A stretch of DNA of 42,685 bases from Candidatus Parabeggiatoa sp. nov. 2. GTDB lineage: Bacteria > Pseudomonadota > Gammaproteobacteria > Beggiatoales > Beggiatoaceae. Both the position numbers and the translations under genes were made by a program. Under the pieces are notes generated by a model. That model was not told the DNA's origin. It did no database searches and was given only the letters and a program-made list of their open reading frames with translations. Shown piece by piece: positions 4,288 to 27,844 of this stretch. Position 1 is the first letter of the stretch. Each line of letters begins with the position of its first letter. The stretch covers positions 1 to 42,685 of the forward strand of contig NBMI01000056.1 in NCBI GenBank assembly GCA_002085445.1, given 5' to 3'.

Positions 4288-4294
4288 TCTCCTT

Positions 4295-5725: not shown

Positions 5726-5824
5726 TGTTTTGCCTCATTATTTTTCAATAGGCTCGGACAGTTTTATCCTACATTTCGCTGTTAAACAGAAAAAAAATGA
5801 AGAAAAGAATATTCAAAGTGAGAA

Positions 5825-6062: not shown

Positions 6063-6097
6063 CACACGCAATAGAATCCCTACGGCTTTGGGATTCC

Positions 6098-6421
6098 CAG
6101 ACAAACCCTAGTAATTGTAATAACCCTTTGCTATTTACAACCCTAAACAAGATTGATACTCGCCGGTGACAACTAAACTGGATGACTCATTTTCGAGGTC
6201 GCCCCATGCGAGAGAAAAAATTATGACAGGAAAAAATGAAAAGGCAAGCTTTTTTGATTTTTTTTTAAGCCTCCTGGTTTTATCACGTTATTTCTACTTA
6301 TTTTTCAAGTAGTTATAAATAACTATTTAAATCAAGATGTTATGCTTAAGTAGCTTAATATAAAGCGATTTTCGTTTTTAAAACCGAACATTTATTATTG
6401 GTTGTGATGGCGTTTTCTATT
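6098..6421. repeat. Long dispersed repeat, copy A
   Basis: This stretch matches 18271-18624 with scattered substitutions and small indels. Shared landmarks are CCAGACAAACCCTAG, ACTGGATGACTC, TATGACAGGAAAAAATGAAA, AAGCCTCCTGGTTTTATCAC and ATTATTGGTTGTGATGGCG. No open frame is conserved between the copies. The part around 6238-6281 can fold (AGGC...GCCT around an A/T run). Copy A ends about 50 bp from a fragment of the DUF11 gene, and copy B is 1.5 kb past the 3' end of that gene, so the two may have been duplicated together. The function is unknown. Confidence 0.7.
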
Positions 6422-6426
6422 CCTTA

Positions 6427-7110: not shown

Positions 7111-7140
7111 GGAAACTCATCCGTTTCTTCCCCAAATCCT

Positions 7141-7235
7141 AAGAGCGTGTTTTAAAACTCAACTTAATTCATTGTTTTATAATCAAGACACTATTTCATA
7201 AGTGATTGATTCTTGGACTTTTCAAACACGCTCTT
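7141..7235. repeat. MITE-like element with AAGAGCGTGTTT terminal inverted repeats
   Basis: The element opens AAGAGCGTGTTT (7141-7152) and closes AAACACGCTCTT (7224-7235), a perfect 12 bp terminal inverted repeat. The AT-rich interior has no open frame. It is a non-autonomous transposable element; the mobilising transposase is not in the window. Confidence 0.75.
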
Positions 7236-7244
7236 CGCAAAAAA

Positions 7245-7347
7245 GCGCCTACTACAAACTTAGGCGCTAAAGCGCCTACTACAAACTTAGGCGCTAAAGC
7301 GCCTACTATAAACTTAGGCGCTAAAGCGCCTACTACAAACTTAGGCG
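7245..7347. repeat. 27 bp tandem repeat, about four copies
   Basis: Four consecutive copies of a 27 bp unit read GCGCCTACTACAAACTTAGG plus CGCTAAA. Each unit also contains the inverted pair GCGCCTA/TAGGCGC, so the array can form repeated small stems. One copy carries ACTATAAAC instead of ACTACAAAC. No coding function is seen. Confidence 0.85.
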
Positions 7348-7348
7348 A

Positions 7349-7727
7349 TGTTCACCATCAGGACTCAGGGTGAGCGCGGTAGCGCCGCTTAAACCTTGTA
7401 GGCCATTGAGGCCGTTTTTTGGGCTTGAACAAAGGTGGAAGGGTTATTGACGCGGGTGTCGGCTTGCGCTTGGTTGTTGATTGGGATCAAACGCTTTTCC
7501 TTGGAGACTCGCCGTGAAGCTGAGGTTGCCAACGGTGGTGGGTTGTACGACTAGCGTGATGGTGGCCGTGCCTTCTTTAGGGAGGTGGAAAATGGTGCAA
7601 ATGATATCTCCTTCTGCTTGTTGAGAAGTGCCATCAGCAGCGCTGGCCCCATTTTGGGTGGTGCCATTAGCGGAACTGGCCCCATTTCGGGTGGCATCAG
7701 CGACGCTGGCCCCATTTTGAGTTGGTA
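7349..7727 (-). pseudogene. Fragment of the DUF11/beta-propeller gene (propeller-to-DUF11 junction)
   Basis: This block matches about 23930-24270 inside the giant DUF11 gene, including the GCGCTGGCCCCATTT repeats that encode the alanine/serine-rich NGASAADG linker. It has several indels relative to the functional copy: a shorter T run, loss of a short AAAACA segment and a changed AAC region. No frame is open across it. The GCTGGCCCCATTT linker has been expanded to at least three units. It is a decayed duplicate, 0.7 kb from the other fragment at 6468-6643. Confidence 0.85.
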
Positions 7728-7948
7728 AAAAGCGCGTCGGTTTCTGTTCGGAAAAACTCTTATGTTGGCGTTCGTCTCATAACGAACCTTCTCAAGTGCT
7801 GCTGTGAGTTCATGTTGGGTGGAATTTCGTTACACTCAAAGCCTGATAGGTTTGTTCAAACCACCATAAATTATCCGATTAGGAGGAATGGTGGGTTTAG
7901 CAAAGCACATTGAAGGGTAGCGAAGCTCCTACCCACCCGACGCTCAAG
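7727..7948. repeat. Cassette-border repeat, copy 1
   Basis: Shared landmarks with 10455-10746 and 12816-13092 are GCGCGTCGGTTTC, CATGTTGGGTGGAATTTCGT, TTACACTCAAAGCC, GATTAGGAGGAATGGTGGGT and a final GCGAAGC...ACCCACCC stem. It lies downstream of the first Septu-like cassette (minus strand). The three copies differ by indels, so they are old duplicates, not recent insertions. The remaining stretch to 8223 shows only short repeats (TAAATGTTCGCCC and TAAGTGTTCGCCC) and no gene. Confidence 0.8.
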
Positions 7949-8223
7949 TTTGGCCGCCGTGCAGCCAAAGTTTGGAGGATTTTATGGACTTTCCTAAATG
8001 TTCGCCCTTTTCTAAGTGTTCGCCCTAGCTTAACTAATGGCATTGAGCCTACGCTTGCTCCTTTGATAAATTATTAGTACGAGTAGGTTTTCGTTATGTA
8101 CGAAACTTCGTTCCGAGCGAAGCGAGATCACTCCAACATCAGTTTGAGTGAATCAGATCAATTTGTTGGACTTCCGCTCAAAAGTCCAACCGACACCGGC
8201 CAAGTGTACAGACTATTTGAACG

Positions 8224-8817
8224 TCACCCAAACAAAAATTTAATTGTCGTATAAAAAGGCTGGTATCTTCCATCAACTTTCTTGAGATACGCTGATACAA
8301 ATTCCATTAATTCATCTTCTGTCAATAAGCTATCTATGAATGGTTCTATTGCCTCTTTTCTCAGTGCATTGAGCTTAGTTATATCTAAACCCAGTTTTTT
8401 AATCGTTGTCCGTGCCTTTTCGTCAACGGGTTCAATATAACCATTTTATGTCTATTTAAAATATCTTTCACAATCTTCGTCTAATGGAGAGATTGGGAGT
8501 TCATTATCACCTTTCAAGTTACCGCAATGACGTGGTTCTCCTTTCTTGATTTGATCTTGACAAAGCAGATTAGAAAAATCAAGGGCTTTTTCAGGATAGC
8601 TATTCTGTGGCAGAAAATGTTCAATATGACTATCTGTTGCAATGAGTTCTTGTTCACAATAACAACAGATATAGCCTTGTTCTTCCATTAAAGCCGTCTT
8701 AACAAGAGATTTTTCTGGATTTCGTAAGTTGTTATACGAAGGTTGCCAATTGTCGTTAGCAAGCCCTTTCCATTCAGTCAATTCTTTAGGTTCTCTGCCC
8801 TTTTTAATAGACTTCAT
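8224..8817 (-). pseudogene. ptuB: PtuB-like HNH nuclease with two in-frame stop codons
   Basis: The frame from the ATG at 8817 encodes a Septu/retron-type HNH protein (TIGR02646-like). It has CCYC at 51-54, the HNH signature SHIEHFLP at 63-70 and RHCGN near 97. The open frame ends after CERYFK at a TAG (8452-8454), and a TAA follows two codons later (8446-8448). The same frame then continues without a stop for 73 codons. That tail (NGYIEPVDEKARTTIKKLG, then LDITKLNALRKEAIEPF and so on) is the expected C-terminal half of this family, ending at 8224. Total length would be 197 codons, typical of PtuB. The ATG overlaps the PtuA stop (ATGA at 8814-8817). Either the gene is freshly inactivated, or the 121-residue product is what is made. 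Readthrough is possible but unsupported. Confidence 0.85.
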
Positions 8818-10058
8818 TTGCCAATAATTTCCATCCGTTTGAGTAGAACCTTTGCTTTCACCAATTCAGAGTCCATACCAATCTCGGTTTGCAATTCCTC
8901 TATTAAATCTTTTGCCTCTGCTAATTTTTTAGCTTGAATTAATACGAACAGTTCATGTAGCCGTTGCTTCTCTTTTGGAGGACGTGCATCTGTGTCCATC
9001 AAATCCTCTAAAATACGATCGGTATTCTTTCCATAAGACTCTTCTGGATGCGAGAGACTATTTTCTCTAAGTATAAATAGACTTTCAGGTTTGACATGAC
9101 TAATAATTTGAGGTGAATGCGTAGTAATAATAAACTGACAATTTTGGAAAATATTCATCAAGTTAGGTACAATCGCTCTTTGCCAACTCGGATGAAGATG
9201 TAAATCAATTTCATCAATTAATACCACACCTTGTTGTTGCAAAGGATTATCACTGGTTGGATTAGCGATTATTAAACGGCGTGCTAAATCAGCAACCAAT
9301 ATCATCAACATTTTTTCACCGGCAGAAAGTTGATTAATCTTTAATAACGTACCGTTTTTTTGGAGACATAAATCCCCATTAGGGTTCTTTTGCCAAGTAA
9401 CATGTAAGTTATCGAAAGTATTTTGTTCATCACTTATCACTTTATAGATAGATTGACGAACAATTTCATATTTTTTGTTAGTTCCAACTTCCCTTTTAAT
9501 ATTTTCTTGCCACTTAAACCAAGCAAAAAAACGATCAAAATCAAAAACGCCTTCTTGACAAGCAGAACTATAAGCCGCAAGAATATTAGTCTCTAATTTT
9601 AACTCAGAAAATTCTATATTCCCAACCGGTGCATTATAGACAGGATAATAGATAAATAAAGGCAGAGATTGTTGATTGTTATATAAATCTTGTAATAGAC
9701 TATAAAAAGAACTGGTGCCGATATGATCAGATTTTAATGAGAAAGTTTTGCCTTCAATACATGAGCCAATACTTATATGAGAATCATTATTTTTGCCAAA
9801 TAAGATACGAGCTTCATGCTTTGATAATTTTTGGTGGGCAAACTTTTGCCGATTTTCCTGATTAGAAGAAGGATTATTGACGAATTCAAGAAGCGTCTCT
9901 AAAGCCATCTCAAATAATAAAGCAATGCTTCTTAATATTGTGGTTTTCCCGGTACCATTTCTACCAATTAAAACCGTTAAGTTTTCATGGAAATTTAACT
10001 CAAAATCCTTAAAACCACCAATGTTCTCAAGTTTGAGTTTAGTTAGTTTTGTAGTCAT
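8814..10058 (-). CDS. ptuA: PtuA-like AAA/ABC-type ATPase (Septu cassette 1)
   Basis: This is an SMC/OLD-type ATPase of 414 residues counted from the ATG at 10058 (MTTKLTKLKLENIGG). Walker A GRNGTGKTT lies at 32-40. The ABC signature is LSAGEKMLMIL, the Walker B region VVLIDEIDLHLHPSW and the H-loop FIITTHSPQ. An upstream ATG at 10106 would add 16 residues of non-family sequence, so the internal start is preferred. The gene overlaps the HNH gene by four bases. In Septu defence, PtuA and PtuB form a complex in which the ATPase controls the HNH nuclease against phage; that is family knowledge. Here the partner nuclease is interrupted, so the ATPase may be an orphan. Confidence 0.87.
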   Translation of the reverse strand: MTTKLTKLKLENIGGFKDFELNFHENLTVLIGRNGTGKTTILRSIALLFEMALETLLEFVNNPSSNQENRQKFAHQKLSKHEARILFGKNNDSHISIGSCIEGKTFSLKSDHIGTSSFYSLLQDLYNNQQSLPLFIYYPVYNAPVGNIEFSELKLETNILAAYSSACQEGVFDFDRFFAWFKWQENIKREVGTNKKYEIVRQSIYKVISDEQNTFDNLHVTWQKNPNGDLCLQKNGTLLKINQLSAGEKMLMILVADLARRLIIANPTSDNPLQQQGVVLIDEIDLHLHPSWQRAIVPNLMNIFQNCQFIITTHSPQIISHVKPESLFILRENSLSHPEESYGKNTDRILEDLMDTDARPPKEKQRLHELFVLIQAKKLAEAKDLIEELQTEIGMDSELVKAKVLLKRMEIIGK

Positions 10059-10080
10059 TATTATTACAAATAGTCTAAAT

Positions 10081-10466
10081 TTAAATAAACAAACGGAATT
10101 GTCCAAGATGTTTATCTAAACGTTTTTGAACTTCTTGTGTATCTAATTCCTTAGTTCCATTATTAGTGCTAGTAAAAAAATACGTTCTATCACTTCTCGT
10201 GTATCTAATTCTCTTGTCATTTGACTGTTACGGAAAAAATAGAGTTTAGCATCTTCTATGCGGATGGATTTAGTAACCTTAATTATACAGATATCTTTAT
10301 CATCCACCGTTTCAAAATAAATTCGGATAGATTTCTCCGTAAAAAATATTACTTCAATATGATCATTGAAGGCATTGATCGTTTCAATCAATAGCGAGCA
10401 TTGATAAATATTAGTTCGCGGAAAGCAAACCTGCTCCCGCCGGATAGAAAAGCCCGAAGCCAGCAA
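10081..10466 (-). pseudogene. Unknown small gene upstream of ptuA, frameshifted in an A7/T7 run
   Basis: An open frame runs 10466-10143 (107 residues, ends IMELRN). At the run of seven A on the plus strand (10174-10180), a one-base shift restores a frame. It continues FFTSTNNGTKELDTQEVQKR, then LDKHLGQFRLFI, to a stop at 10081, only 22 bp before the PtuA start. The restored tail repeats the ELDTREV/ELDTQEV pattern found just before the run, which supports it as genuine. The first ~10 codons overlap the border repeat (10455 onwards), so the true start may have been lost. The family is not recognised. It may be a third component of this cassette or a decayed neighbour. Confidence 0.5.
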
Positions 10467-10746
10467 CGATTACTGACGACAGCCTTGATAAACTTTGGTT
10501 TATTTAAAGCACGTCGGTTTCCATCACGATAGGAGGGAGCTTCTTCTGTTGGAATTCGTTCATAACGAAAACATACCGTGCTGTGAGTTTATGTTGGGTG
10601 GAATTTCGTTACACTCAAAACCCGATAGATTCGTTTAATCCACCATAAATGAGCCGCCGATTAGGAGGAATGGTGGGTTGGGCGTTCCATAACTTTCGTT
10701 GCGCTACAGCGATACGAAGTCAGCGAAGCTAAACCCACCCGACACG
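10455..10746. repeat. Cassette-border repeat, copy 2
   Basis: It begins CGAAGCCAGCAACGATTACT and ends ACCCACCCGACACG, matching copy 3 (12816-13092) over its whole length with indels and copy 1 (7727-7948) over the last two thirds. It separates cassette 1 (upstream border) from the end of cassette 2, whose HNH gene stops at 10771. It contains GCGATACGAAG/CTTCG-type small stems and no gene. Confidence 0.82.
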
Positions 10747-10770
10747 TAACATAAGACACGCGGCGATCTG

Positions 10771-11304
10771 TTAAAGGAATAGTTGTTTTAACATCGCGTA
10801 AAAGGCTGGCAACAAATCATAATGGGGATTTAAAAATTCTTCAATATCAAGCCCCTTTTCTTGCTGTTCAATGATTAATTGATACTGTTCTTTTCGTATA
10901 TCTGTTAATTTTGAATGGTTTAAATCCAAAATCGATATCATATATTCGGCTTTAGTTCTATCTTCTTGATTCTTGCTTGAGTTTGGGTGAATCTTACCTT
11001 CAATATCATAGACAAAATAATCCTCAATTTCATTGCATTCCACCGGATTTAAAAATTTATGGGCATATTGGGGGCGACTACGAGGGCGGATATGTTCAAT
11101 GTGAGAGCGAATCCTATATTCTGTCTCCTTTTTTTCAGGCACTTCTTGTTGACAGTAAATGCAAAGCCCTTGTTGGGAACAAAATAAGTGCTGATGTAGT
11201 TTGAGTTTGATGTCGGTTTTAAACTCATCCCAAACGGAAGGTGAATCATTGTTCACATACTCATCAAACTCGGCACAGCGATTAGATTTATCTATGTATC
11301 TCAT
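10771..11304 (-). CDS. ptuB: PtuB-like HNH protein with a shortened HNH core (Septu cassette 2)
   Basis: This 177-residue member of the Septu/retron HNH family has cysteines 48 and 51 (CIYC) and the HNH opening RSHIEHIRPRSRP at 66-78. It also has FLNPVECNEIEDYF, which corresponds to the ISPLDEDCERYF part of the first PtuB. Between HIEH and the conserved Cys it has only 18 residues, against 48 in the gene at 8224-8817. The missing stretch carries the NL...C and CGN/CGHxK elements that complete the HNH/zinc site in the family. The protein is thus probably an in-frame deletion form and may not cut DNA. The start ATG overlaps the ATPase stop (ATGA, 11301-11304), which shows translational coupling. 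Confidence 0.82.
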   Translation of the reverse strand: MRYIDKSNRCAEFDEYVNNDSPSVWDEFKTDIKLKLHQHLFCSQQGLCIYCQQEVPEKKETEYRIRSHIEHIRPRSRPQYAHKFLNPVECNEIEDYFVYDIEGKIHPNSSKNQEDRTKAEYMISILDLNHSKLTDIRKEQYQLIIEQQEKGLDIEEFLNPHYDLLPAFYAMLKQLFL

Positions 11305-12671
11305 TGAGTGAGTTGGTTTTGTTTTCTTCTTATCATCATTAACTGATGATTGAGTCTCATAATAAAAGGATCTTGTTTGCCTAAGTCTTCTATTAAGTCA
11401 TTGATAAGGGCTTGCATTTCTGGTTTATCACAGTCTTCAGGATCAGTGCGCAGACGTTCTGAGAGCGCGTCTATTCTTTTCTGCGTGTCAATATCCCTTA
11501 AAGGTGCCTCCATAATTTCTTTGATAATTCGGTTGGGTTCAAGCCCTTTAGTGTGTTTACTCGCTTTAGCCGCATTGATAATTTCACAAGTTTGCGTCTC
11601 CTTATTGAGAGCAAACAAAAACAGATTTTCGGGTTTCACAGAGGCAATCAGAAACGGTGAATGGGTTGCTACAATGACTTGGTTATTTTTGCCGGCATTT
11701 TGGTACAGTTTTAAAATAGCTTGTTGCCAGCTAGGATGTAAAGAAGTTTCTGGCTCATCTACCATGATAATGCTGTTTTGTAAATTGAGGTTGTTTAAAT
11801 AAATCGCTTGATAAAACAATTGCTTTTCACCATGAGACAAGTCATGAATAGAGACTTTTTTGCGATTGAAACTTTCAAAAATAGCCTCTTTTGCGGTAAT
11901 ATCGACTAATTTGCTAACGAGTTTGATGTCAGCAAGACAATTATTAATCAATTGCGTGGTTTCTTGAATCACCTCCTCCGCTTTTTTCTTCCTATCAGAT
12001 AGGAGTTTTTCGACGACGGAATTAACGATGTATTTTTCAACCGCGTATTTATGAACCGCAAAATCAATCACACGCACTAGTCCATTATCTTGTTGGGTGA
12101 TATATTTTTCTAGCGTTTCTAAATCGGAATTCTCTTTTGTAAAAGGTGTTGATGAGGTATTTAAATAAGTTTCGGAAGGAATATAGCACAGTTTAAAATC
12201 AAAACAGGCTTTACCCAGTATCTCAAAAAGCCTAAAGTCATCTTGTTTAATAACGGTTTGATTATCTCTTTTTTCGGCTTTATACCATAAGGTAAAAATC
12301 GGGTGACGACTTTTTAAAGTCTTGAGAAGCAAACTCATCATTTCCAATACCGCAGAATGTTCGGTGTTATATCTGGCTATTTTTGTATATTCTTCTTGGA
12401 TAACATTGATAATAAGAGACTTTTCGGTGTGAGAATGGATTTCCAGTTCTAGTTTTATTTGAGAGTCCTTCAACAAATCGGCACGATAATGCTCATTCTC
12501 AGGTTTCCTTGAGAAAACTTCCTTTAATAACTCTAATATAGATGTTTTCCCACTGCCATTGACACCCGCCAAGACAATGGTATCTAATGTCTGACCGTTT
12601 TCGTCGGTAAAATCTAGTTCTAAGTTATCAAAGAGTTTGTAATTTTTGAGGTTGATTTTTCTGAGTTTCAT
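11301..12671 (-). CDS. ptuA: PtuA-like AAA/ABC-type ATPase (Septu cassette 2)
   Basis: This 456-residue ATPase starts MKLRKINLKNYKLFDNLELD, typical of SMC/OLD-like N-termini. Walker A GVNGSGKTS is at 36-44, the ABC signature is LSHGEKQLFY, Walker B is IIMVDEPETSLHPSWQ and the H-loop is VIVATHSPF. The central region is helical and charged. It is not a close duplicate of the first PtuA: motif contexts differ (DEPETS against DEIDLH), so the two cassettes were acquired separately. It overlaps the HNH gene by four bases. It is predicted to act with the HNH protein as a Septu-type antiphage complex. No promoter is obvious; the 3' neighbour on the upstream side is a border repeat. Confidence 0.88.
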   Translation of the reverse strand: MKLRKINLKNYKLFDNLELDFTDENGQTLDTIVLAGVNGSGKTSILELLKEVFSRKPENEHYRADLLKDSQIKLELEIHSHTEKSLIINVIQEEYTKIARYNTEHSAVLEMMSLLLKTLKSRHPIFTLWYKAEKRDNQTVIKQDDFRLFEILGKACFDFKLCYIPSETYLNTSSTPFTKENSDLETLEKYITQQDNGLVRVIDFAVHKYAVEKYIVNSVVEKLLSDRKKKAEEVIQETTQLINNCLADIKLVSKLVDITAKEAIFESFNRKKVSIHDLSHGEKQLFYQAIYLNNLNLQNSIIMVDEPETSLHPSWQQAILKLYQNAGKNNQVIVATHSPFLIASVKPENLFLFALNKETQTCEIINAAKASKHTKGLEPNRIIKEIMEAPLRDIDTQKRIDALSERLRTDPEDCDKPEMQALINDLIEDLGKQDPFIMRLNHQLMMIRRKQNQLTQ

Positions 12672-13217: not shown

Positions 13218-14342
13218 CTACTTATATGTTAAAACAATATCAATCTCACCCGGTTTTTTAGACTTATCTCCAAAGAGTTCTGTCTGTGTTCTGCTTTTAA
13301 ATGGTTTCTTTTTAGTATTAATAATAGACTTAGGAAAACATTTTTTGAGAATTTCTACGGTAGATTTAAATGTAAATTCTCTTGCATCAGTCCTGACATA
13401 TACACTGCTATTTTTAGCCATTACTTTAGCGCAATTTGAAAATACGGTTTCCAAAAGATTGTAATAATCAATTTTGGAATTAAACCGCATTTTATGTTTT
13501 TCTCCAGTGGATTCAGGCTTATCTGTTCCACCTAATAACCATAACCTAAGCCATTGGTCAGTATAGTAATTTGTGACTCCCCAATAAGGGGGGGAAGTAA
13601 ATAGTAGAGAAAACTTTATCTTATTTTTTTTAGCCCTTTTTGCAATGGCATCAAATTCTATTGAACTGTCTCCCAAGAAAACATAACTGTCCGTAATATT
13701 GGGTACACCTTTTGCGTATCTCCATTTAATTTTCTTTAGAATAAACTCAAATGGATTGATTTCAGGTGCTGTAGTTAAATTATGTTTTTTCCACCAATTA
13801 ACAGAATAGGTGGGGCCCATTGACTTGGTTTGACGCATTTGGTTAGATAAACCTTCGCCAAGTTTTCCATGCAGATAGACTAAAATAATTGACATTAAAG
13901 TTGCATCAACTTCATTTTCTTCCCAATTCATATTTTTTCTTATGGCAAGAAGAAATGATAAAACCTCATTACAAAAACAGTACCTAAAAAATTCAGGCAG
14001 TTTTTTAATTTGGTTTTTATATTTTTTTCTAAGTGAATAAATATCTTTTAGCCGTTCAATGACCTCATTTTCATTGGCAGGTTTTAATTTTACCTTGCCA
14101 TACAACCAACCCACCGGATTAATTTCAATTCCCCAACTACGACGTCCTAGTACACCACCTGCGTAAATGCTTGAACATCTACCAGCAAATGGATCAAGAA
14201 TATAGTCTCCTTCCTTTGAATATTTATCCACAACCTCAAAAGCAAAATCCAGTGGAAACATCGCATAATAAGGACCAAATCTGGCCCATCTCGCCTCTGG
14301 ATTATTATAACCTTTGATGTTTATCTCGGTTAAATTTGACAT
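13218..14342 (-). CDS. DNA methyltransferase with DPFAG and TSPPY motifs
   Basis: This 374-residue amino-methyltransferase probably makes N4-methylcytosine or N6-methyladenine. The SAM-binding motif I DPFAGRCSS is at 50-58, followed by an acidic motif (GIEINPVGWLYGK). The catalytic motif IV TSPPYWG is at 249-255. Motif I comes before motif IV with about 200 residues between them, which is the alpha-like order, unlike the common IV-then-I order of SPPY enzymes. The central block may serve as the recognition domain. It is the last gene of a tight operon: 4 bp separate it from the NurA-like gene at 14347. Its likely job is to mark self DNA for the HerA/NurA pair. The 3' end abuts repeat-rich DNA, but the ending EIDIVLTYK looks natural. 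Confidence 0.85.
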   Translation of the reverse strand: MSNLTEINIKGYNNPEARWARFGPYYAMFPLDFAFEVVDKYSKEGDYILDPFAGRCSSIYAGGVLGRRSWGIEINPVGWLYGKVKLKPANENEVIERLKDIYSLRKKYKNQIKKLPEFFRYCFCNEVLSFLLAIRKNMNWEENEVDATLMSIILVYLHGKLGEGLSNQMRQTKSMGPTYSVNWWKKHNLTTAPEINPFEFILKKIKWRYAKGVPNITDSYVFLGDSSIEFDAIAKRAKKNKIKFSLLFTSPPYWGVTNYYTDQWLRLWLLGGTDKPESTGEKHKMRFNSKIDYYNLLETVFSNCAKVMAKNSSVYVRTDAREFTFKSTVEILKKCFPKSIINTKKKPFKSRTQTELFGDKSKKPGEIDIVLTYK

Positions 14343-14346
14343 AACA

Positions 14347-15705
14347 TTATGACTTTCCTCTTAATTCTCTGGCCATTTCTTCAAATATACTTCGTCCTAA
14401 ATTTAAAGGAATTGCCGCTTCTGCGTGTGCCGAAATTAAAGGAGAAACCGAGTTTTTATATCGGCTTGATACGACTTGATTTAGCAAATTCATAATATCT
14501 GCAAGTCTCGAAAATTGATTTGGAAAAGCAGTTTTCAAATCCTGTTGATATTCACTAAAAAATGCGATACTGGGTACAATTCTATAGCCTAAAGAAGTTT
14601 TATAGAAAAACTTTCTACCAAAATAAGTGTCTTGTCCATAAGGTTTTTCACTTTCTGAGAAAATAATGTTTTTCTTGATGTACTCGTCATCAAGCAACAA
14701 AGCAGACTGATTGGGGAAATGATCAGAAATTCCTTCTTTTGTGGTGTCAATATCTTCAAAATGATTAACAAAAGTACCAGATTTTTCAATTCCCAAAATC
14801 AATAATTCTTGGTGATTGACTTTTTTAGCCAATTCATTAAGCCGTCTTAATTCATCAATGATTGATTTTGTTAGCCAAGATGAAGTACTGAAAACTGCTA
14901 AAGGTCCATCCAGCATAAAAGCAATACGCCGTAAAGTTGGTAACAATTTTCTCTTTTCAAAGGCTCTAAGGATATGAATTAACCACAGTCGTTCAAATGT
15001 TGACATTATTTGTCCAAACATTTCGCCGCTAGAACCACCTTCTGGATTCATTAATTCATGTAATCTTAAAGCATCTGAGGAATATAAGGTTTTACCGCAA
15101 TGATTACACGAATATTCCCCTATTCCATATTCGTATTCTTTTTTCAAATCACACGGGCATTTTGGTGGATGTCCACCATGCTTTTCTCTCTTGATATTTG
15201 AGAGTACTTCGTAAGTATCTAATAAAGTTTCACCCTCTTCAAAAACATGATTATTTTTTAATTCTTCAAACAGTGCTTTTCTCATTGAAGATTTTGCAGA
15301 ATCTTCATCATCAATAATCACATTACAGCCCGGAAAAACGGTGTCAATCGTAGAAGCATCTTCTGTTTCTCTAAATTCTTTCGGATTTATAAATTCTTCG
15401 TTCTCCAATTCCCTAATTTTATTGAGAAAAATGATAACAGAGGCAACAGTGACATAGCCAAATTCTGCTCCCGGAAATCCATTTTCTGCTTTGACAAGAT
15501 GACAACTTCCATCAATAGCTATCACCATATATGGTTGCCAATCGCTTGGTTCTAGCTTATCTTTGTGTATAATAGGCAAGGAAAGTTCACCATCTTCATT
15601 GTCGCTTTGTCTAATTTTGAAGCGTTTTTTAATATTTTGAACCTTCTTACTGTCTAAAATCCGACGAAGTGGCTCATAACTTGCCAATTCATTTTCAAAA
15701 GGCAT
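14347..15705 (-). CDS. NurA-domain nuclease with inserted zinc ribbon
   Basis: This 452-residue protein carries NurA-type landmarks: the first catalytic aspartate in VIAIDGSCHLV (D65), the second in IAFMLDGPLAVF (D266), then GIEKSGTFVNH and a late ISAHAEAAIPLNLG (His near 427). NurA is an RNase-H-fold nuclease that works on DNA ends with the HerA translocase. Between the two aspartates is an insertion with CPC at 183-185 and CNHC at 200-203, followed by a His (DALRLHE), which reads as a zinc ribbon/finger. Plain archaeal NurA lacks such a unit as far as I know. The insertion could bind a specific DNA state. Spacing to HerA is 6 bp upstream and to the methyltransferase 4 bp downstream. Confidence 0.78.
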   Translation of the reverse strand: MPFENELASYEPLRRILDSKKVQNIKKRFKIRQSDNEDGELSLPIIHKDKLEPSDWQPYMVIAIDGSCHLVKAENGFPGAEFGYVTVASVIIFLNKIRELENEEFINPKEFRETEDASTIDTVFPGCNVIIDDEDSAKSSMRKALFEELKNNHVFEEGETLLDTYEVLSNIKREKHGGHPPKCPCDLKKEYEYGIGEYSCNHCGKTLYSSDALRLHELMNPEGGSSGEMFGQIMSTFERLWLIHILRAFEKRKLLPTLRRIAFMLDGPLAVFSTSSWLTKSIIDELRRLNELAKKVNHQELLILGIEKSGTFVNHFEDIDTTKEGISDHFPNQSALLLDDEYIKKNIIFSESEKPYGQDTYFGRKFFYKTSLGYRIVPSIAFFSEYQQDLKTAFPNQFSRLADIMNLLNQVVSSRYKNSVSPLISAHAEAAIPLNLGRSIFEEMARELRGKS

Positions 15706-15711
15706 AGTTGA

Positions 15712-17865
15712 TTAACTCCTTTCTTTGACATCAAATTTCTTGACTTGAACAGGTATTACGAAATAATTACTCAGCGTTTTAACTCGTAAAAAGCCCTTGT
15801 CTTGCGCCCGCCTAATGGAACGCTCAAAATCCTCGAAGTCGTAGTACTTACGAAGCTCTTTAGTTTCATCAGTATTATTTAAATGACCAATAAACCAATT
15901 GGCTGTGTTTTTGAGGATATTTTTTTGGATGCTACTGACTTCCTGCGTAGAGTAAACCATACCAATACGGTATTTTGCGCCTTCTTTGGCAGTTCGTACC
16001 CAAACATCTTTTAAATCTAAGTCACTTCCACTGGGTAATAAGTTATGGGCTTCTTCAATATAAACAAGAATATCGTAGGGTTCTTGGCTTTCTCTAAACC
16101 TTTTTTGGTTTTCTCTGAAAATATACCAGATGATCCGTTCAGCCGATGATTTATTAATCTCCGGTTCGCCACTTGATTGGTCAATAATGACCAACTTGCC
16201 CTTGATTAAATCATCGTAGATATCTTTGGCATAATCAGAACCGGTTGAAGGAGAGTGATTATCTCTCACTTTACCAATTTGCCTAGCACCGTTGGGCCGC
16301 CAAATCATTTCTAGAATTTTCTTAAAATCTTCATCAGCCCAATTATCACCTGAAGCCTTTGGTCTATCATTGACATACCACCTTTCAAACGCTTTATATT
16401 CAGCTGTTTTCATAAAGTCGTACAAGGTAGCAAATGCATCCGCAAGACTTTTTAAAGAAGGAAACTCGATTTGGAGGTTTTTTGCAGCAGCCCTGTATTT
16501 ATCAGCGTTGTCTGCATCACTTTTCACATCCAGCATTCCATTAAAACACTCTCCTTTTTTAGCATTTGGCCTACCTTTAAATAGTTCTTGATTAAACAGT
16601 CCTGAGGTTTCAATATTTGAATTATTAGGAACATTAAAACCGGCTTTCGCTAATAGAGAACGATAAGCAAGTACTCGTCTCTTGTAACGAGTAGTTGCAC
16701 TTCTATCGCTGGGTTCAGGCTTTTCAAAAACAACTTGCTGAAAGTTTCCGATAAATTTAGATTCATCCTTTCCAAAGGAAGCATCAATGATTTCTTTACC
16801 TATTTGTAAATTATGATCCAAATAGAAATTAATCAGCATTAATTTTCTGTCTGGATCCTTAGAGTGTTTCAATATGCCGTAAGTGACAACTTCCTCTTCC
16901 TTTTTGGCATTAAGATTAACTTCCCAAACATTCTTTAGTGCATTGGGGTTATCATTGCCATCTTTGTCTTGAATATTCTCATTCGCATATTCACCATTAG
17001 GATCAAAGATAATTTGACCTATTTCAAGTTTTTCGTCACCGGTATTTTTGGGATAACGAAGTTCATAGACAGATTTGGCAATAATTTTGGTGGTATTTGA
17101 TTTACCTGTTCTCGTCATACCAAATAGTGCCGTTTTTTGAGCCAATAAATCAGCTGGGTAAATACTAACAGGCACATCATTAACTTGTTGATATTTCCTA
17201 TGAGTTGAGGCGTATCTAACACAGCCTAATTGCACCCTGGCTTGGCTTTTTTGGTCAACCGCATGGCTTGAATCTAAGTAGTTGACGATTTTTTCCAAAG
17301 CTTCGGCATTGGGTTTATAAACATTTAACCCTCGGTTCGGATAGTAATTTGAAATATCGCTACCAAATTTAAGGATTAAAGGGACTTCCACATTATTTTC
17401 GTCTTCTTCTAAATAAAAAGTGCCTATGATTTTGCACTCAATACTTGCATACCCCAAATGAACCCTAGTTTTCGCGTCCATCGCATGTTTATCCCAATGT
17501 TCCGTTGTACCACTGACACGTTGAGCGGTTTCAACCCGAATTCTTTCGGCTTCTGCACTATTTGGCAATTGGGCTGCATCCATAACTCTAAGTAAAATGA
17601 TAGAGGAATCCTCGGCTTTAAAGTCAATTTTATCAACATCAAGGTCTATTCTTGTCGCAATGAGGAAACTCAAACTTGGGATACCGCCTACTTCATGTCT
17701 TTCATTATCATGGATTAGTACCTTTGCTTTTTCATAGGCGATAGAATACACATCACCAACCAATTGAGTAGGTTGGATAAGTTCTTGAAACCGAGTTTTG
17801 GTTTCGTGAACACGACGATCTTCATTAAATAATTCTAAACTTTTTTCAATACCTTTTTTGTTCAT
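15712..17865 (-). CDS. HerA-like DNA translocase ATPase (DUF87 family)
   Basis: This hexameric-type FtsK/HerA ATPase is about 717 residues. An N-terminal beta-barrel-like region (1-230) precedes Walker A GMTRTGKS at about 249-256. IIFDPNGEY follows. The C-terminal core has LVIIDQSSGEP, Walker B ILVYIEEAHNLLP near 630 and the sensor/arginine-finger region GMVYSTQEVSSIQ. The ATG at 17865 (MNKKGIEKSL) is preferred; an in-frame TTG at 17889 would add eight residues. It is the first gene of the operon with NurA and the methyltransferase. The expected role is to pump DNA into the NurA nuclease. The long internal stretch 340-520 is unusual for minimal HerA and may be a regulatory insertion. Confidence 0.85.
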   Translation of the reverse strand: MNKKGIEKSLELFNEDRRVHETKTRFQELIQPTQLVGDVYSIAYEKAKVLIHDNERHEVGGIPSLSFLIATRIDLDVDKIDFKAEDSSIILLRVMDAAQLPNSAEAERIRVETAQRVSGTTEHWDKHAMDAKTRVHLGYASIECKIIGTFYLEEDENNVEVPLILKFGSDISNYYPNRGLNVYKPNAEALEKIVNYLDSSHAVDQKSQARVQLGCVRYASTHRKYQQVNDVPVSIYPADLLAQKTALFGMTRTGKSNTTKIIAKSVYELRYPKNTGDEKLEIGQIIFDPNGEYANENIQDKDGNDNPNALKNVWEVNLNAKKEEEVVTYGILKHSKDPDRKLMLINFYLDHNLQIGKEIIDASFGKDESKFIGNFQQVVFEKPEPSDRSATTRYKRRVLAYRSLLAKAGFNVPNNSNIETSGLFNQELFKGRPNAKKGECFNGMLDVKSDADNADKYRAAAKNLQIEFPSLKSLADAFATLYDFMKTAEYKAFERWYVNDRPKASGDNWADEDFKKILEMIWRPNGARQIGKVRDNHSPSTGSDYAKDIYDDLIKGKLVIIDQSSGEPEINKSSAERIIWYIFRENQKRFRESQEPYDILVYIEEAHNLLPSGSDLDLKDVWVRTAKEGAKYRIGMVYSTQEVSSIQKNILKNTANWFIGHLNNTDETKELRKYYDFEDFERSIRRAQDKGFLRVKTLSNYFVIPVQVKKFDVKERS

Positions 17866-19246: not shown

Positions 19247-19586
19247 GCCGCCGCTGTCGTCCAAATGTAAGGGAGGCAGAGTAGTAATACGCGGGCACCT
19301 GTTATTGACCTAGATTTTGGCCGGTTTTTGGACTATCAATTTTGAGGGCCATAAAAGATTTTGGAGGTTTTCAATTTAGGTTATGGCCCTCTGTCGCGCT
19401 TACAGTTTGATACTTGGCTGTCGTCCAAGGCCGCCGCCGCTGTCGTCCAAACGAAGGCAGAGTAGTAATACGCGGGCACCTGTTATTGGCCTAGATTTTG
19501 GCCGGTTTTTGGACTATCGATTTTGAGGGCCATAAAAGATTTTGGAGGTTTTCAATTTAGGTTATGGCCCTCTGTCGCGCTTCATT
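19247..19586. repeat. 186 bp direct tandem duplication
   Basis: The segment starting GCCGCCGCTGTCGTCCAA at 19247 recurs at 19433 with the same order of blocks: GCAGAGTAGTAATACGCGGG, CACCTGTTATTG, TTTTGGCCGGTTTTTGGACT, GGGCCATAAAAGATTTTGGA and TTATGGCCCTCTGTCGCGCT. Only a few substitutions separate the copies, so the event is recent. The GGGCCATAA/TTATGGCCC pair is an inverted repeat of the type seen at 6.7-7.1 kb. No coding function is seen. Confidence 0.85.
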
Positions 19587-20131: not shown

Positions 20132-23100
20132 TTATTCAGGTGGCGGAATTTGGTAGATGATTTGTTTTTCGCCGCTGCCGTACATGATGGCTAAGTCGTT
20201 TACGCCGTCGCCATTGGCGTCGGGGATGTCATTGAGTTGGAGGCCGCCGGTTGGGGTGTTGCCAATTTCTACGGTGTAGTCAATGATGCCGGTAAAGGCG
20301 TTGGCACCGCCGGTGACTGTGAGGGTGCCGTTTAAGTCTAGTCGGACGGCTTCTACGCCGGGCGTGTTCGTCAAAAAGTTTTGCAGTTTTTGCGGGTATT
20401 TGGCGGCCGGGTAGAGGTGTTGGAGGCGTTTGTGGCCTTCTTCGTTTATAAATACTAGGCCGATTGTTAATACGCTCGGTAGTGTGGTGGGGAAGTAGTG
20501 GAGGCCTAACGGCATTCCTAGGAACGCCGGCGTTGATTGTAAGTCTGGGCGGGCGCTGAAGCTGAGTGTGTCGTTGTAAGGGAGTGTGAGGTTGCCGTTG
20601 GTTTCAACCGCCACCGTGGGTAGTCCGAGTGGGCGCAGTTGGGCTTCTAGGGCCGGTATGTCTTGTACTTGTGGCTGGGTGGTGATTTTGAGGCCGGTTT
20701 CGGTGATGAAGTCGGTGCTGCCGTCGGGATGTATTGTCATACCCGGCGGTGTGTTTTCGGTTATCTGTGTCATGCTGGTGGTTTTCATCACGAGGCGCTT
20801 GTCTTCTTGAGTTAGTATATAGTCGCCGTCTTGGTTTTGGGAGACAACATAGCCGGCCGTTGCGACGGATTGAATGGCCTGAATTTCGGCCGCGACTTCT
20901 GGGAAGGGCTGCAGGTAGAGGATTTGTCTGTCGCCATTGGTGTAGGTTATCCATAAGTCTTCACTGTCGTCGCCATTTTCGTCGGGAACAATGAGCATTT
21001 GGGTGATGGTGTTGGAGGTGTCGTTACTCGGTTTGATCGTGTAGTCTGGGACGGCCGAGTAGGTGCGTGCGCCTATTTTGACGGAGATTTTGCCGTTTAA
21101 GTGAATCTCGACGGTGGTGGCTCCGGGTATGCCTTGTAAGAAGGAGTGCAACTCCTTTGGATGGGCCGGTGCTGGGTAGAACAGTTGTTCATGGCGCACA
21201 CCGGCGTCGTCTTCAAATCTAAATAGATATATCGTGAAGCCCTCAAGGAGGGGTGAAGGCTTGCCGAATATGCCTAAAGGCAAGGAGGGTTCCGCTAACC
21301 GTGTGTAGAGTTCGGGACGGATTTGGTATTGGTCAATCGTCGTCAACATCAGGTTGCCATTCGCGGATGCTTTTAGTTGAGTAATCCCGGCGTTTGCCAG
21401 TATGGCTTGCAAATCGGCCGGCTTTTGGGGCGCCGGTTGAGCGAGTATTTCTCGTCCGGTTTTTGTGAGAAAAGTCACGCTGCCATCAGTATGAATGGTC
21501 ATCGTTGCTGTGGTGTTAGCGGACGACGCTTGTTGCACTTTGATAGGCATCAAAACCAGGTTTTCGTCGCTGAGCGGCAGCAGTAAGTGGCCGGTGTCTG
21601 GGGCTTGCGAAAAGGCTAAGTTATTGTTTTTTAAGTCAGGTATCGCGTTAATCACGTCCAGTAGTGGGCCACCTGAGAGTAGAACGTCTTTGGATAAGTC
21701 TACCGCGGTGCTACCAGTAATAGGCCCTTGTATGGATGGTAAAGCCTTGGTTAAGTCAATGCCAGCAGGAATAAGGTGGTTGGCGGCAAAGGTGACGCCT
21801 TGTCCCAGAATGACGTTGGCATCGAGTTGGCTGTTGAGACCTATAATGACATGGCTGAGTTGTGTGTCGGCGGCAATGTGGGCGTTCAAGGTGGCTGGGG
21901 CCGTCGGAAAGCCAGTAATGTTGCCGCGCAACGTGCCGCCATTAATGACTGTGTCACTGAGGAGTTGCACATTTTCTATCAGGCCTTTGTTGGTGATGGT
22001 TTTGGAGAGCTTGCCACCGCTGACGGTGGTGTTGGCTAATATCTGCACTTCGGAGATAAGGCCTTGATTTTGAATGGTTCCTGACAGCGTTCCACCAATC
22101 ACGGCCCCCGTTGGTTTGACGATATAGTTGTGTAGATTGTTGCCGCTATTGTCATAAGTGTCTTCAACGGTGTTGAAAACGACTTGGGTGGTTTTGGTGG
22201 CCGTGTTGTTGGGTAGGTTGGTGTCAAACGCAGAGGCAGTGACAGTGGCGGTATTGGTGAGCGTGACGTCGGCGGTGTTGGGTGTGACAACGAGCGTGAT
22301 TAGGCTGTTGGTGCCGGCCGCGAGACGAGAAATGGTACAAGTGACTGTGCGCGTGTTTTCGTCAAAGAAGCAGGGCGTGGTGTCGGTGCTGACTTGGGCC
22401 GACACGTATTTGACCTTGTCAGGTATCTGGTTGGTGAAGGAGAGGTTTTTGGCGTCGTCGGGGCCGTTGTTGGTGATGGATATCTCATAAGTGAGCGCCG
22501 TCTCAATGCGGGCCGGTTCGGGGGTGGCATTGATGCTTAACCATAAGTCGGCCTCGGCAACCACTTGCGTGGTTTCGGTGGCGGTGCTGGGGCTGCTGGG
22601 ATCGTATTGATTAGCCCAGACGGTGACTTTGTTGGTAAGCTCGCCGATATCAATCGGTGACACGACTAAGTTGAGGGTGACACTGGCCCCATTGGCAAGG
22701 CTGCCCAGTGTGCAATTGATTTGGTCTTGAGTCGGCGTGGGAATACAAGTGCCTTGGCTCGGACTAAATGAAATCAGGGCGATCTTCTCTGGTAAACTGT
22801 CTTCAAGTGTCACACCCGTTGCTTGATGTGGGCCATTGTTGGTGACGGTGATGCTGTAAACGAGATTGTCGCCGACATTGATAGGCTCTTCGCTCTCGCT
22901 CAAGGTGACGTTTAAGTCGGCCGTGGCAATGCTGAGTACGGCAACCGCATTGTCCGATAAGCTGGTGACATAAACGTGTGCGCCACCGGGGCTGACAGCG
23001 ACGGCGCTTGCGCCAGCAAGCCCATCAACTTCGTCAATCCCATCGGTTCGCACATCAACAAAAGTGAGTTTGCCGGTGTCGGGGTGACGACGAAAGGCCG

Positions 23101-25555
23101 CCAGCGCGTTGTCATTGCGGCCGGCCACATAAACGTAGTCATCTTCGGGACTGATGGCTAACCCAGAAGCACCGTTGAGTCCGTCAACCGAGTCAACGCC
23201 ATCTCGATGGATTTCGACAAAGGTGAGTGTGCCGGTTTCAGGAGAACGGTTGAAGACGGCGATGGCGTTGTCGATGCCTCGGCCGACGGTGTAAACTGAT
23301 TGGCCGTCCGCACTGATAACGACATCAACGGCTTTGTCTAAGCCTTGTACGCCTTCGGTGTTGTTGGCGAGGGTTTGTTGTAGGGTTAGAATGCCGCTGC
23401 TGGTGTCTCGACTGAATACCGACAGACGATTGTTGTTGGTGCTGGTGGCAAGCAGGTGTAATCCGTCGGGCGAAATGGCGAGCGCACTAACTCCATCAAG
23501 TTGTGTGGCTTCGTCTTCAACGCGAAAGGCTTGTTTGAAGGTGAGTTTGCCAGTGGTGGTGTCACGAGTGAAGAGGGCGATGGCATCGGCAACCGCGCCA
23601 GCGATATAGACGTGGTTATCGGTGACGGTGAGGGCAAACGCACCGGCAAGCCCGGCAACGCCATTGATGCCTTCTTGGTGGACTTCGAGAAAGGTCAACG
23701 TGCCGCTAAGTGCGTCGCGCTTGAAGACGGCCACGGCGTTGTCACTGAAGCCAGTAGCATAGACAAACGCGCCGTCTGGACTGATACTCACGCCACTGGC
23801 AGCGGCTAAGCCTTCGACGTTGTTGGTACCATTAAGTAATACTTGGGCAAATTTGAGTTGGCCGTTGTTGGGGTTGCGCGTGAAAACAGCGAGGGCGTTG
23901 TCATTGAAGCCGGCGGCATAGAGATGTTCACCGTCAGGACTCAGGGTGAGCGCGGTAGCGCCACTTAAACCTTGTACGCCATTGAGGCCGTTTTTTTGGG
24001 CTTGAACAAAAAACAAGGTGGAAGGGTTATTGACGCGAGTGTCAGCTTGCGCTTGGTTGTTGTCAGTGTTGGGATCAAACTCTTTTCCTTGGAGACTCGC
24101 CGTGAAGCTGAGGTTGCCAACGGTGGTGGGTTGTACGATTAGCGTGATGGTGGCCGTGCCTTCTTTAGGGAGGTTGTCAATGGTGCAAATGATATCTCCT
24201 TGTTGAGAAGTGCCATCAGCTGCGCTGGCCCCATTTCGGGTGCTGCCATCGGCGGCACTGGCCCCATTTTGGGAGGCCGGTTGAGAAGGAGAAGTCTTGA
24301 GCTCAAGACAGGTGCCGTTGATTTCGGCTGGACTTATCGTGGCCGGCGATTTAAATTCGACGTTGTTGGGTAACTTGTTGATTAAGTTAATATTATTAGC
24401 TGCCTCTGGGCCGTTGTTGGTGAGGGTTATGGTGTAAGTCAGTGGGTTGTCTACGAGAACCGGATCCGGCGCGTCGGTTATGGTTAGGCCGATGTCGGCG
24501 GTAGATTGACTGACTTCGGTTTCAAGCTTGGCGGTGTTGTCGGATTGGCTCGGATCGAAGGTGTCGCTGCTGACGCTGGCGGTGCTGCTGAGTTTGCCAA
24601 CCGTTTGGGGCTTGACAACGATGATGACGGTGGCAGTGTCGTCTTTGTTGAGCGGCCCTAATGGACAAGTGACTGTCTTTTCAGATTGGCTGCAAGCTTC
24701 TCCTTGATCGCCGCCAGCGGAGATATAGGTGACAGTGGCTGGGAGTTCTTGGGTGACAATGACAGCGGTTGCTTGATGGGGGCCGCTGTTGGTGACGACG
24801 GAGGTGTAGATGAGATTGTTTTGTGTTAAGGCCGGACTTGGATCGGCCTTTAGCGCGATGTTGAGGTTGCTCTCTTTATTAGAAACGGCCGTTTGTTGGG
24901 TGGCGGTATTGGGTAAGGTTGGATCAAACACCTCACTGGTGACTTTGGCCGTTAGGGTTAAGTTGCCAAGCTCAGTGGGTGTGGCTTCAATGGTGACGGC
25001 CTTGTTGGCGCCGGCCGCGATGGCTTCTAGGGTGCAACTGAATTGGGTGCCGGTGCCACAGTTGTCGCCAGTGATGGTGCCAATTACGACGTTGTTGCCG
25101 GTTAGGGTTATATCGAGCTTGGCGCCGGCCCCCGCGGGGCCATTATTGGTGACGGTGACGGTGTAAGTGACTATATTTCCTAATAATATAGATTGGCCGC
25201 CGTCGTCGATGGTGACAACAAAGTCGGCCGCAGTGCCGGTGATGTTGTTGAGTTGGATGGATTTGCTGTTATTGCTTTCGTTGGTATCGGTGCCGTTGCC
25301 GGTGATGGCGAAGGTGGTGGCGATATCGGTGCCAGTTTGGAGGGCTTTGACGGTGAGGCCGATTTCTTTGGTGGCCGCTGGCGCAAGGGTGTTGATATTG
25401 CAGGTGAGTTTGGCTTGGGCAAAGGCGCAGTTGTCGTCGTCCGTATTAGAGACATAACTCAGTTGCGGCGGTATGGTGGCCGTTAGGGCGACACCGCTGG
25501 CGGTGTCTTTGCCTTGGTTGGCGACATTGAGGGTGTAGGTGATTTCGGTGCCCAC
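20132..25555 (-). CDS. Giant DUF11/beta-propeller surface protein, C-terminal part of a broken gene
   Basis: This 1807-codon frame is open at its 5' side beyond the GTG at 25555, up to about 25715. Order: four DUF11 units (about 1-510, with NNGPxxAxxV and VTC.L..L motifs), a linker with repeated NGASAADG, and a second YVTN-type beta-propeller (about 512-877; GLAGAxAVAVSPDGxHVYV repeats). Two more DUF11 units follow (to about 1130), then a C-terminal module of about 675 residues. The module starts with bactofilin-like turns (GTLSGTIQNQGLISEV) and contains two tandem ~210-residue copies, each beginning TIHxDGSxxF and ending in a DxNGD...D calcium-loop-like motif. It is probably exported and extracellular. 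The N-terminal part is in another frame at 25699-27357. The last residues are IIYQIPPPE. Confidence 0.82.
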   Translation of the reverse strand: MGTEITYTLNVANQGKDTASGVALTATIPPQLSYVSNTDDDNCAFAQAKLTCNINTLAPAATKEIGLTVKALQTGTDIATTFAITGNGTDTNESNNSKSIQLNNITGTAADFVVTIDDGGQSILLGNIVTYTVTVTNNGPAGAGAKLDITLTGNNVVIGTITGDNCGTGTQFSCTLEAIAAGANKAVTIEATPTELGNLTLTAKVTSEVFDPTLPNTATQQTAVSNKESNLNIALKADPSPALTQNNLIYTSVVTNSGPHQATAVIVTQELPATVTYISAGGDQGEACSQSEKTVTCPLGPLNKDDTATVIIVVKPQTVGKLSSTASVSSDTFDPSQSDNTAKLETEVSQSTADIGLTITDAPDPVLVDNPLTYTITLTNNGPEAANNINLINKLPNNVEFKSPATISPAEINGTCLELKTSPSQPASQNGASAADGSTRNGASAADGTSQQGDIICTIDNLPKEGTATITLIVQPTTVGNLSFTASLQGKEFDPNTDNNQAQADTRVNNPSTLFFVQAQKNGLNGVQGLSGATALTLSPDGEHLYAAGFNDNALAVFTRNPNNGQLKFAQVLLNGTNNVEGLAAASGVSISPDGAFVYATGFSDNAVAVFKRDALSGTLTFLEVHQEGINGVAGLAGAFALTVTDNHVYIAGAVADAIALFTRDTTTGKLTFKQAFRVEDEATQLDGVSALAISPDGLHLLATSTNNNRLSVFSRDTSSGILTLQQTLANNTEGVQGLDKAVDVVISADGQSVYTVGRGIDNAIAVFNRSPETGTLTFVEIHRDGVDSVDGLNGASGLAISPEDDYVYVAGRNDNALAAFRRHPDTGKLTFVDVRTDGIDEVDGLAGASAVAVSPGGAHVYVTSLSDNAVAVLSIATADLNVTLSESEEPINVGDNLVYSITVTNNGPHQATGVTLEDSLPEKIALISFSPSQGTCIPTPTQDQINCTLGSLANGASVTLNLVVSPIDIGELTNKVTVWANQYDPSSPSTATETTQVVAEADLWLSINATPEPARIETALTYEISITNNGPDDAKNLSFTNQIPDKVKYVSAQVSTDTTPCFFDENTRTVTCTISRLAAGTNSLITLVVTPNTADVTLTNTATVTASAFDTNLPNNTATKTTQVVFNTVEDTYDNSGNNLHNYIVKPTGAVIGGTLSGTIQNQGLISEVQILANTTVSGGKLSKTITNKGLIENVQLLSDTVINGGTLRGNITGFPTAPATLNAHIAADTQLSHVIIGLNSQLDANVILGQGVTFAANHLIPAGIDLTKALPSIQGPITGSTAVDLSKDVLLSGGPLLDVINAIPDLKNNNLAFSQAPDTGHLLLPLSDENLVLMPIKVQQASSANTTATMTIHTDGSVTFLTKTGREILAQPAPQKPADLQAILANAGITQLKASANGNLMLTTIDQYQIRPELYTRLAEPSLPLGIFGKPSPLLEGFTIYLFRFEDDAGVRHEQLFYPAPAHPKELHSFLQGIPGATTVEIHLNGKISVKIGARTYSAVPDYTIKPSNDTSNTITQMLIVPDENGDDSEDLWITYTNGDRQILYLQPFPEVAAEIQAIQSVATAGYVVSQNQDGDYILTQEDKRLVMKTTSMTQITENTPPGMTIHPDGSTDFITETGLKITTQPQVQDIPALEAQLRPLGLPTVAVETNGNLTLPYNDTLSFSARPDLQSTPAFLGMPLGLHYFPTTLPSVLTIGLVFINEEGHKRLQHLYPAAKYPQKLQNFLTNTPGVEAVRLDLNGTLTVTGGANAFTGIIDYTVEIGNTPTGGLQLNDIPDANGDGVNDLAIMYGSGEKQIIYQIPPPE

Positions 25556-27805: not shown

Positions 27806-27844
27806 TCCGTTTTTCTAACGAACCCCTGTAGGCACGCTTTATCC

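Follow-up and report, generated by a model that had tools for sequence, protein, structure and literature searches.

The sequence analysed here (the window) is the 42,685-nt stretch of contig NBMI01000056.1 (assembly GCA_002085445.1) of Candidatus Parabeggiatoa sp. nov. 2, whose minus strand carries three tightly packed genes encoding a HerA-type translocase, a NurA-family nuclease and a DNA methyltransferase (Table 1). The gaps between the genes are 6 bp (HerA-NurA) and 4 bp (NurA-methyltransferase), so that the description given in an earlier note on this DNA, of a HerA ATPase, a NurA and a TSPPY methyltransferase packed with 4-6 bp gaps, holds. All three products are recognized by Pfam, with 47.1 bits for DUF87/HerA (cut-off 23.2), 83.4 bits for NurA (cut-off 21) and 56.1 bits for N6_N4_Mtase (cut-off 26.7), the best stretch of the latter comprising residues 17-76, at the end of the profile. 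PADLOC gave weak matches for HerA and for the methyltransferase (to a type II methyltransferase model), the NCBIfam matches of these two proteins were both far under the cut-off, and NurA had no match in the PADLOC and NCBIfam scans. The host genome (8.45 Mb) contains one Pfam NurA match. Of the 120 RecA matches listed, those with a name place Candidatus Parabeggiatoa (87%) nearest to the host RecA, with Thiomargarita and Marithrix next (82-83%), so that the host belongs to the large sulfur bacteria or their close relatives.

Table 1. Genes and motifs of the HerA-NurA-methyltransferase operon, followed by neighbouring genes, in window coordinates.
Feature	Position	Strand	Remarks
HerA-type translocase (hexameric ring predicted)	15712..17865	minus	first operon gene, 717 aa from ATG
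NurA-family nuclease	14347..15705	minus	second operon gene, 452 aa, four-Cys zinc-ribbon-like stretch
DNA methyltransferase	13218..14342	minus	third operon gene, 374 aa
HerA Walker A GMTRTGKS (residues 249-256)	17098..17121	minus	translation
NurA Asp65, predicted metal-binding residue	15511..15513	minus	column conservation
Methyltransferase AdoMet-binding motif DPFAGR (residues 50-55)	14178..14195	minus	invariant in 20-row alignment
Methyltransferase catalytic motif TSPPY (residues 249-253)	13584..13598	minus	TSPPY in 63/64 core relatives
PtuA-like ATPase of Septu (neighbour, not core)	11301..12671	minus	PADLOC PtuA, E 4.3e-70
PtuB-like HNH nuclease of Septu (neighbour, not core)	10771..11304	minus	PADLOC PtuB, E 1.9e-33
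Second PtuA-like ATPase (neighbour, not core)	8814..10106	minus	PADLOC PtuA, E 8.9e-115

A closer inspection of the three proteins showed their key motifs to be conserved. The Walker A motif of HerA, for which an upstream TTG at 17889 offers an alternative start (eight additional residues), appears as GMTR[TS]GKS in 60 of the 62 HerA open reading frames (ORFs) of relatives examined. In NurA, Asp65 and a second aspartate, Asp266, are invariant in alignments of 20 and 24 rows, and both columns remain so in a 10-row alignment of the wider NurA family (A7); Asp65 and the TSPPY motif, the two sites singled out in the earlier note, are thus present and conserved. The zinc ribbon noted at the same time is found in the window protein (C-x-C ... 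C-x-x-C) and does not extend to the family as a whole: among 64 relatives four cysteines are present in 15, one in 30, two in 1 and none in 1, the anchor pattern not being found in the other 17. In the methyltransferase the AdoMet-binding motif precedes the catalytic one, a permuted order that we take to be that of the alpha-like class, and TSPPY is presumably the form typical of N4-cytosine methyltransferases.

The recurrence of this gene order in other genomes, which the earlier note had proposed to look for, was readily seen. Two NurA peptide patterns, run against 84,980 species genomes, retrieved 64 loci (the core set), whose NurA proteins are 41-72% identical. These loci were fetched by NurA alone, and a methyltransferase lies directly downstream of NurA in all 64, the two genes overlapping by 4 bp in 36, while HerA lies upstream in 62; the two exceptions are a contig that ends inside NurA (L065) and a decayed copy (L064). 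Pairwise divergences of HerA, NurA and the methyltransferase are correlated (Spearman 0.86-0.89), as calculated over 53 rows (the window and the 52 of 64 loci in which each protein of the trio reaches at least 85% of length), and none of 500 permutations reached such values. No fourth gene recurred in more than 5 of the 64 loci, which makes the trio complete as a core; one upstream gene is common to L014, L018, L020 and L021, and the two copies scanned match PF09509. The order HerA-NurA-methyltransferase, recurring in 62 of 64 loci, is thus beyond chance. For two distant methyltransferases (L070 and L071, the latter adjoined by a transposase-like gene), the five ORFs scanned, their own and neighbouring ones, included no HerA or NurA. 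In a control with random regions of the carrier genomes, 1 of 40 stretches contained a methyltransferase match, a weak one, although the profiles used had been made from the loci under test, which favours the test set, and 5 of the 40 stretches were shorter than 7 kb.

Beyond the core set, more distant relatives of NurA, 24-27% identical to that of the window, occur on plasmids and in a phage. A haloarchaeal plasmid carries HerA-NurA-methyltransferase, and a Deferribacter megaplasmid carries methyltransferase-HerA-NurA with HerA split by an IS200/IS605 element. Of three cyanobacterial plasmids, the one examined (L114) carries HerA-NurA with no methyltransferase within 6 kb. In Vibrio phage 10N.286.55.C4_PE001 (PQ189371.1, L116) HerA-NurA is accompanied by a convergent D12 methyltransferase gene and flanked by integrase and excisionase genes, an interval that is likely a cargo site. 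Viral contigs searched for NurA relatives by two queries gave pattern matches only, none of which was confirmed as a relative.

The wider-family NurA profile (A7, 10 rows) was then run on 981 genomes of three phyla, drawn around known carriers that served as centres of the survey. Carriers amounted to 14 of 395, 6 of 294 and 3 of 292 genomes, that is 23 with the three chosen centres included, and two further known carriers (G314, G325) fell in the draw of the Bacteroides phylum. All 23 loci were examined, and in 22 of them a DNA methyltransferase gene lies directly beside NurA or HerA-NurA. At the remaining locus (L137, positions 2441-10060) HerA-NurA runs straight into HsdR and HsdM, possibly a composite in which two restriction arms have one methylase in common. 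The trio of the window is not one isolated operon but a member of a widespread HerA-NurA-methyltransferase family, whose nearest relative among solved structures is Tdp.

The methyltransferase partner changes within this family. As identified independently by Pfam, the partners belong to three families, permuted N6_N4, plain N6_N4 and Dam-like D12, and motif IV is TSPPY in the core (63/64), DPPY in D12, TSPPF in plain N6_N4 and NPPF in HsdM, forms that we take to span cytosine-N4 and adenine-N6 enzymes. When the partner (three families, HsdM or none) was mapped as a label, 5 changes were required on the NurA tree and 4 on the HerA tree, the minimum being 4, and the D12 partner arose at least two times on each tree, by supported branches. 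These trees hold 30 NurA and 29 HerA rows (11 core rows, the window among them, and 19 distant ones), some of them on long branches; L140, L141, L131 and L132 were left out of both, and L115, with its split HerA, of the HerA tree. That HerA-NurA keeps a methyltransferase whose family changes points to a function in restriction. This retention also argues against the methyltransferase being an orphan that lies by chance beside a stand-alone HerA-NurA nuclease: the plasmid pair of L114 would fit such an arrangement, but a methyltransferase is kept in 64/64 core and 22/23 survey loci, and chance adjacency is very improbable. Equally remote is a Type IV-like logic, by which HerA-NurA would attack methylated DNA and the methyltransferase would mark invaders or regulate the nuclease. 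The last place of the methyltransferase gene in the core clade, odd for a protective enzyme that has to act early, would suit it; on the other hand, the host DNA would be the chief methylated target, and the methyltransferase gene comes first in several sublineages (L133-L136, L139, L149-L152, L156 and L157).

The distribution of the trio bears on a further alternative, a DNA-repair operon in which HerA-NurA would resect ends and the methyltransferase would regulate or direct repair. Among 57 relatives of the host examined, the trio is carried by the host and by 1 of the 56 others, which belongs to the host's family; it was not found in three other genomes of the host's genus, and with a narrower profile the host was the sole carrier among 299 genomes of its phylum. 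Such sporadic carriage is characteristic of accessory genes rather than of housekeeping repair. The NurA tree (62 rows, the window included) comprises bacteria and archaea from 22 named phyla, and the phylum labels need 25 changes on it (minimum possible 21, shuffled mean 33.2). Eight of the nine phyla with several rows are split, seven of them by supported branches, Pseudomonadota accounts for three changes in three rows, and the three archaeal rows sit within one seven-row clade that is otherwise bacterial. Since binned genomes may contain foreign contigs, these splits lend support to transfer without proving it. The earlier note had also considered that the trio might occur solely as a housekeeping operon for DNA repair, and both the carriage (host and 1/56) and the split phyla (8/9) speak otherwise. 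In a genome of the same genus (L179, a contig of 6.5 kb), the radical-SAM gene at 5.74 kb of the window marks a break in synteny on the trio's side; the 4.5 kb next to this gene has no blastn match to the window, the contig being of insufficient length to reveal an empty site, and a second contig has 163 bp on the trio's side.

Carrier genomes were also searched for further NurA copies. The NurA of the trio is the sole Pfam NurA match in 32 of the 44 carrier genomes searched (L037 not included), so that often there is no separate repair copy, a point in favour of the repair operon together with the known presence of HerA-NurA in repair operons of archaea and Deinococcus, as stated in the part of PMC12977600 consulted. 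Eleven further copies were seen, ten of another type and one family member (L168) with a plain N6_N4 methyltransferase. The wider-family profile matched none of the ten other-type loci at E 1e-3, and only one of these, L161, contains a methyltransferase. At L161 (positions 5155-10960, in the genome of L038) a 541-aa N6_N4 methyltransferase lies between the other-type NurA and its HerA, possibly a second, independent coupling. With the low carriage among relatives, the cousins borne by phage and plasmids, the change of methylase family, the distinctness from the other-type NurA and the structural neighbours described below all standing against it, the repair operon is improbable.

The surroundings of the trio, where the earlier note had suggested looking for defence genes, do contain them. 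Septu genes adjoin the trio in the window, as a Septu-like cluster downstream of it (8814-12671) made up of a single PtuB and two PtuA-like ATPases that differ from each other, and in L135 a PtuA-PtuB pair follows NurA in the same gene run. The gene after NurA is TmtA-like in L149 and SoFic-like in L134. Ten genes near core trios were scanned with PADLOC, and six matched at 1e-8. L034 has an AAA ATPase of the candidate system PDC-M62, no more than 3 bp from its methyltransferase, L012 a dGTPase-like gene, L030 a type II methyltransferase and L026 a CARF-type RtcR; weaker matches were to ThsC (L031) and HNH (L011), and the other four (L028, L034, L036, L039) had no match. At a threshold of 1e-10, 263 PADLOC families were matched among 144 flank ORFs (of 177 selected) and 77 among 132 control ORFs (of 145), with methyltransferases in both, a difference that is only suggestive because the PADLOC models are redundant.

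Damaged copies of the operon revealed which component is retained. In the core set, breakage affects HerA in 5 of 57 testable loci, NurA in 2 of 63 and the methyltransferase in 0 of 63. Outside it, L181, from the host's family, has an ORF inserted inside NurA, which we take by its motif to be IS630-like, with HerA and methyltransferase intact; in L141 (positions 4547-5947) a deletion has joined roughly 107 N-terminal residues of NurA, in frame, to the methyltransferase at its residue 17; in L140 NurA is short, HerA was not found and the methyltransferase adjoins NurA; and in L115 HerA is split and the methyltransferase kept. Thus, the methyltransferase is kept wherever the motor or the nuclease is damaged, at eleven loci altogether (seven core loci, L115, L140, L141 and L181), and no damaged methyltransferase beside an intact HerA-NurA was seen at the loci examined. 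By gene length alone, 0 of 11 damaged methyltransferases would occur with a chance of about 0.05, and the pattern is therefore supportive, not decisive. It would be expected as well of a selfish, addiction-type module that persists chiefly because cells losing the methyltransferase die, phage defence being a secondary effect. This explanation shares the same enzymology, and so differs in selection and not in mechanism; the broken-up phyla on the NurA tree and the carriage on plasmids and phage are in its favour as well, whereas the defence genes nearby fit a defence role and L114 has the pair without a methyltransferase. On balance it seems unlikely, if slightly less so than repair.

These data make it probable that the trio is a restriction-modification system, with HerA-NurA as the restriction arm and the methyltransferase as the source of an exchangeable self-mark. 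The methylation-protected HerA-NurA system put forward in the earlier note thereby gains support from the sporadic carriage, the retained methyltransferase, the Septu neighbours, the phage-borne cousin and the similarity to TdpA and TdpB. Two observations weigh against it: the phylum labels on the NurA tree are more clustered than in the shuffles, and L114 represents the reverse of the damaged copies, an intact pair with no methyltransferase at all. In the mechanism proposed for a restriction-modification trio, the methyltransferase would mark host DNA. HerA, as judged from its family, would form a hexameric ring that pumps double-stranded DNA, and NurA would sit on this ring and cut both strands, so that the complex would travel along and degrade unmarked DNA while methyl-marked DNA would be spared. 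The mark could be sensed by the moving ring itself, in the manner of TdpA, an option for which we have a slight preference; alternatively, the methyltransferase positioned on an unmarked site could license HerA-NurA, which is the logic of Type I enzymes and BREX. A broader proposal, which we favour only slightly over its negation, is that HerA-NurA may be the restriction arm of an undescribed restriction-modification class with a plug-in self-mark, the destroyer being constant across bacteria and archaea. With the same modest confidence, the marks would be made by permuted N6/N4, plain N6/N4, Dam-like or Type I methyltransferases, and would be phosphorothioate in Tdp.

Several other features were observed in the window. 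Upstream of HerA, two 133-nt direct repeats (19269-19582) are 97% identical with their starts 181 nt apart, and possibly represent a small mobile repeat. Dense short-repeat arrays occupy 27500-28620, with a 12-copy family of 39 nt, often spaced by 36 nt, and inverted arms of 33 nt. A TnpB-family RNA-guided endonuclease is encoded at 32260-33549 (NCBIfam guided_TnpB, 97.3 bits, cut-off 100), and a bacterial RNase P RNA of class A (339 bits), a housekeeping gene, is placed on the minus strand at 30746-31117, at a distance of some 13 kb from the trio. Two proteins of very large size that contain repeats, one with DUF11 and a lactonase-like propeller (20132-25555) and the other with InlB-like B-repeats and Calx-beta (34050-40460), are perhaps surface proteins.

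Among known systems, the closest to the trio is TdpABC (PDB 8wet, 8wfd, 8y1k), a phosphorothioate-based phage defence in which TdpC makes the phosphorothioate and the TdpA motor senses this self-mark. TdpA was the best sequence match of HerA among solved structures, and comparison of predicted folds with the PDB placed TdpA on top for HerA and TdpB on top for NurA, ahead of repair HerA-NurA; in one HerA fold comparison (VIA) the values for the Tdp chains (20.5 and 19.6) are close to that of the 8xau HerA (19.3). Sequence searches of solved structures with NurA profiles gave no match at 0.01 and only chance zinc fingers up to 10. Both systems combine a motor, a nuclease and a self-marking enzyme, with a base methyltransferase here in place of the phosphorothioate-making TdpC, and TdpA and the window HerA differ in length (586 and 717 aa) and share 19-20% aligned identity. 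No phosphorothioate-synthesis family was matched among the 9 window ORFs scanned, with model sets that hold no TdpC model, and the trio is classed on this basis as a restriction-modification variant and not as a Tdp member.

The repair HerA-NurA of Sulfolobus, Deinococcus and Thermococcus kodakarensis has the same two protein families and the same gene pairing. In the part of PMC12977600 consulted, the T. kodakarensis HerA-NurA is described to degrade both strands of double-stranded DNA, and the repair role of the pair is itself questioned. Mre11, present in the repair operons, had no match among 17 window ORFs, the next genes being PtuA/PtuB-like, and Rad50 models matched only the PtuA-like ATPases of the window, far under the cut-off; conservation in most relatives, a further trait of the repair pair, does not extend to the trio. 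The defence systems HerA-DUF4297 and SIR2-HerA (Nezha) differ in their effector, which here is NurA, and in the modification enzyme added here; no SIR2 or DUF4297 domain, no Dnd gene and no full set of MADS mad1-mad8 was seen among the 9 window ORFs scanned, the window HerA having a weak mad8 match (E 4.8e-12) behind that to the HerA model (3.5e-17). As for DndFGH and other HerA/FtsK capture systems, NurA is not named in the main text of either PMC10853773 or PMC12839542. The open-access literature searched (bioRxiv outside its scope; defence models of PADLOC 2023) gave, among the papers listed, no description of the HerA-NurA-methyltransferase trio, in line with the earlier note, to whose author no named system with just these three genes was known.

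BREX and Type I restriction-modification have in common with the trio self-marking by a methyltransferase and an ATP-driven restriction arm, and PglZ, BrxC, HsdR and HsdS had no match among window ORFs (17 ORFs with Pfam; 9 ORFs with PADLOC, among the best 25 matches). The hallmark of restriction-modification, a methyltransferase genetically coupled to a nuclease, is found throughout the core set and in all but one of the survey loci. HerA-NurA is commonly assigned to DNA repair; the trio family points instead to restriction. The trio makes it possible to test directly by what means a translocating ring distinguishes self from non-self through a base mark and, should the mark prove exchangeable, the reading of the mark would be separable from its chemistry, a question common to Tdp, Dnd and BREX.

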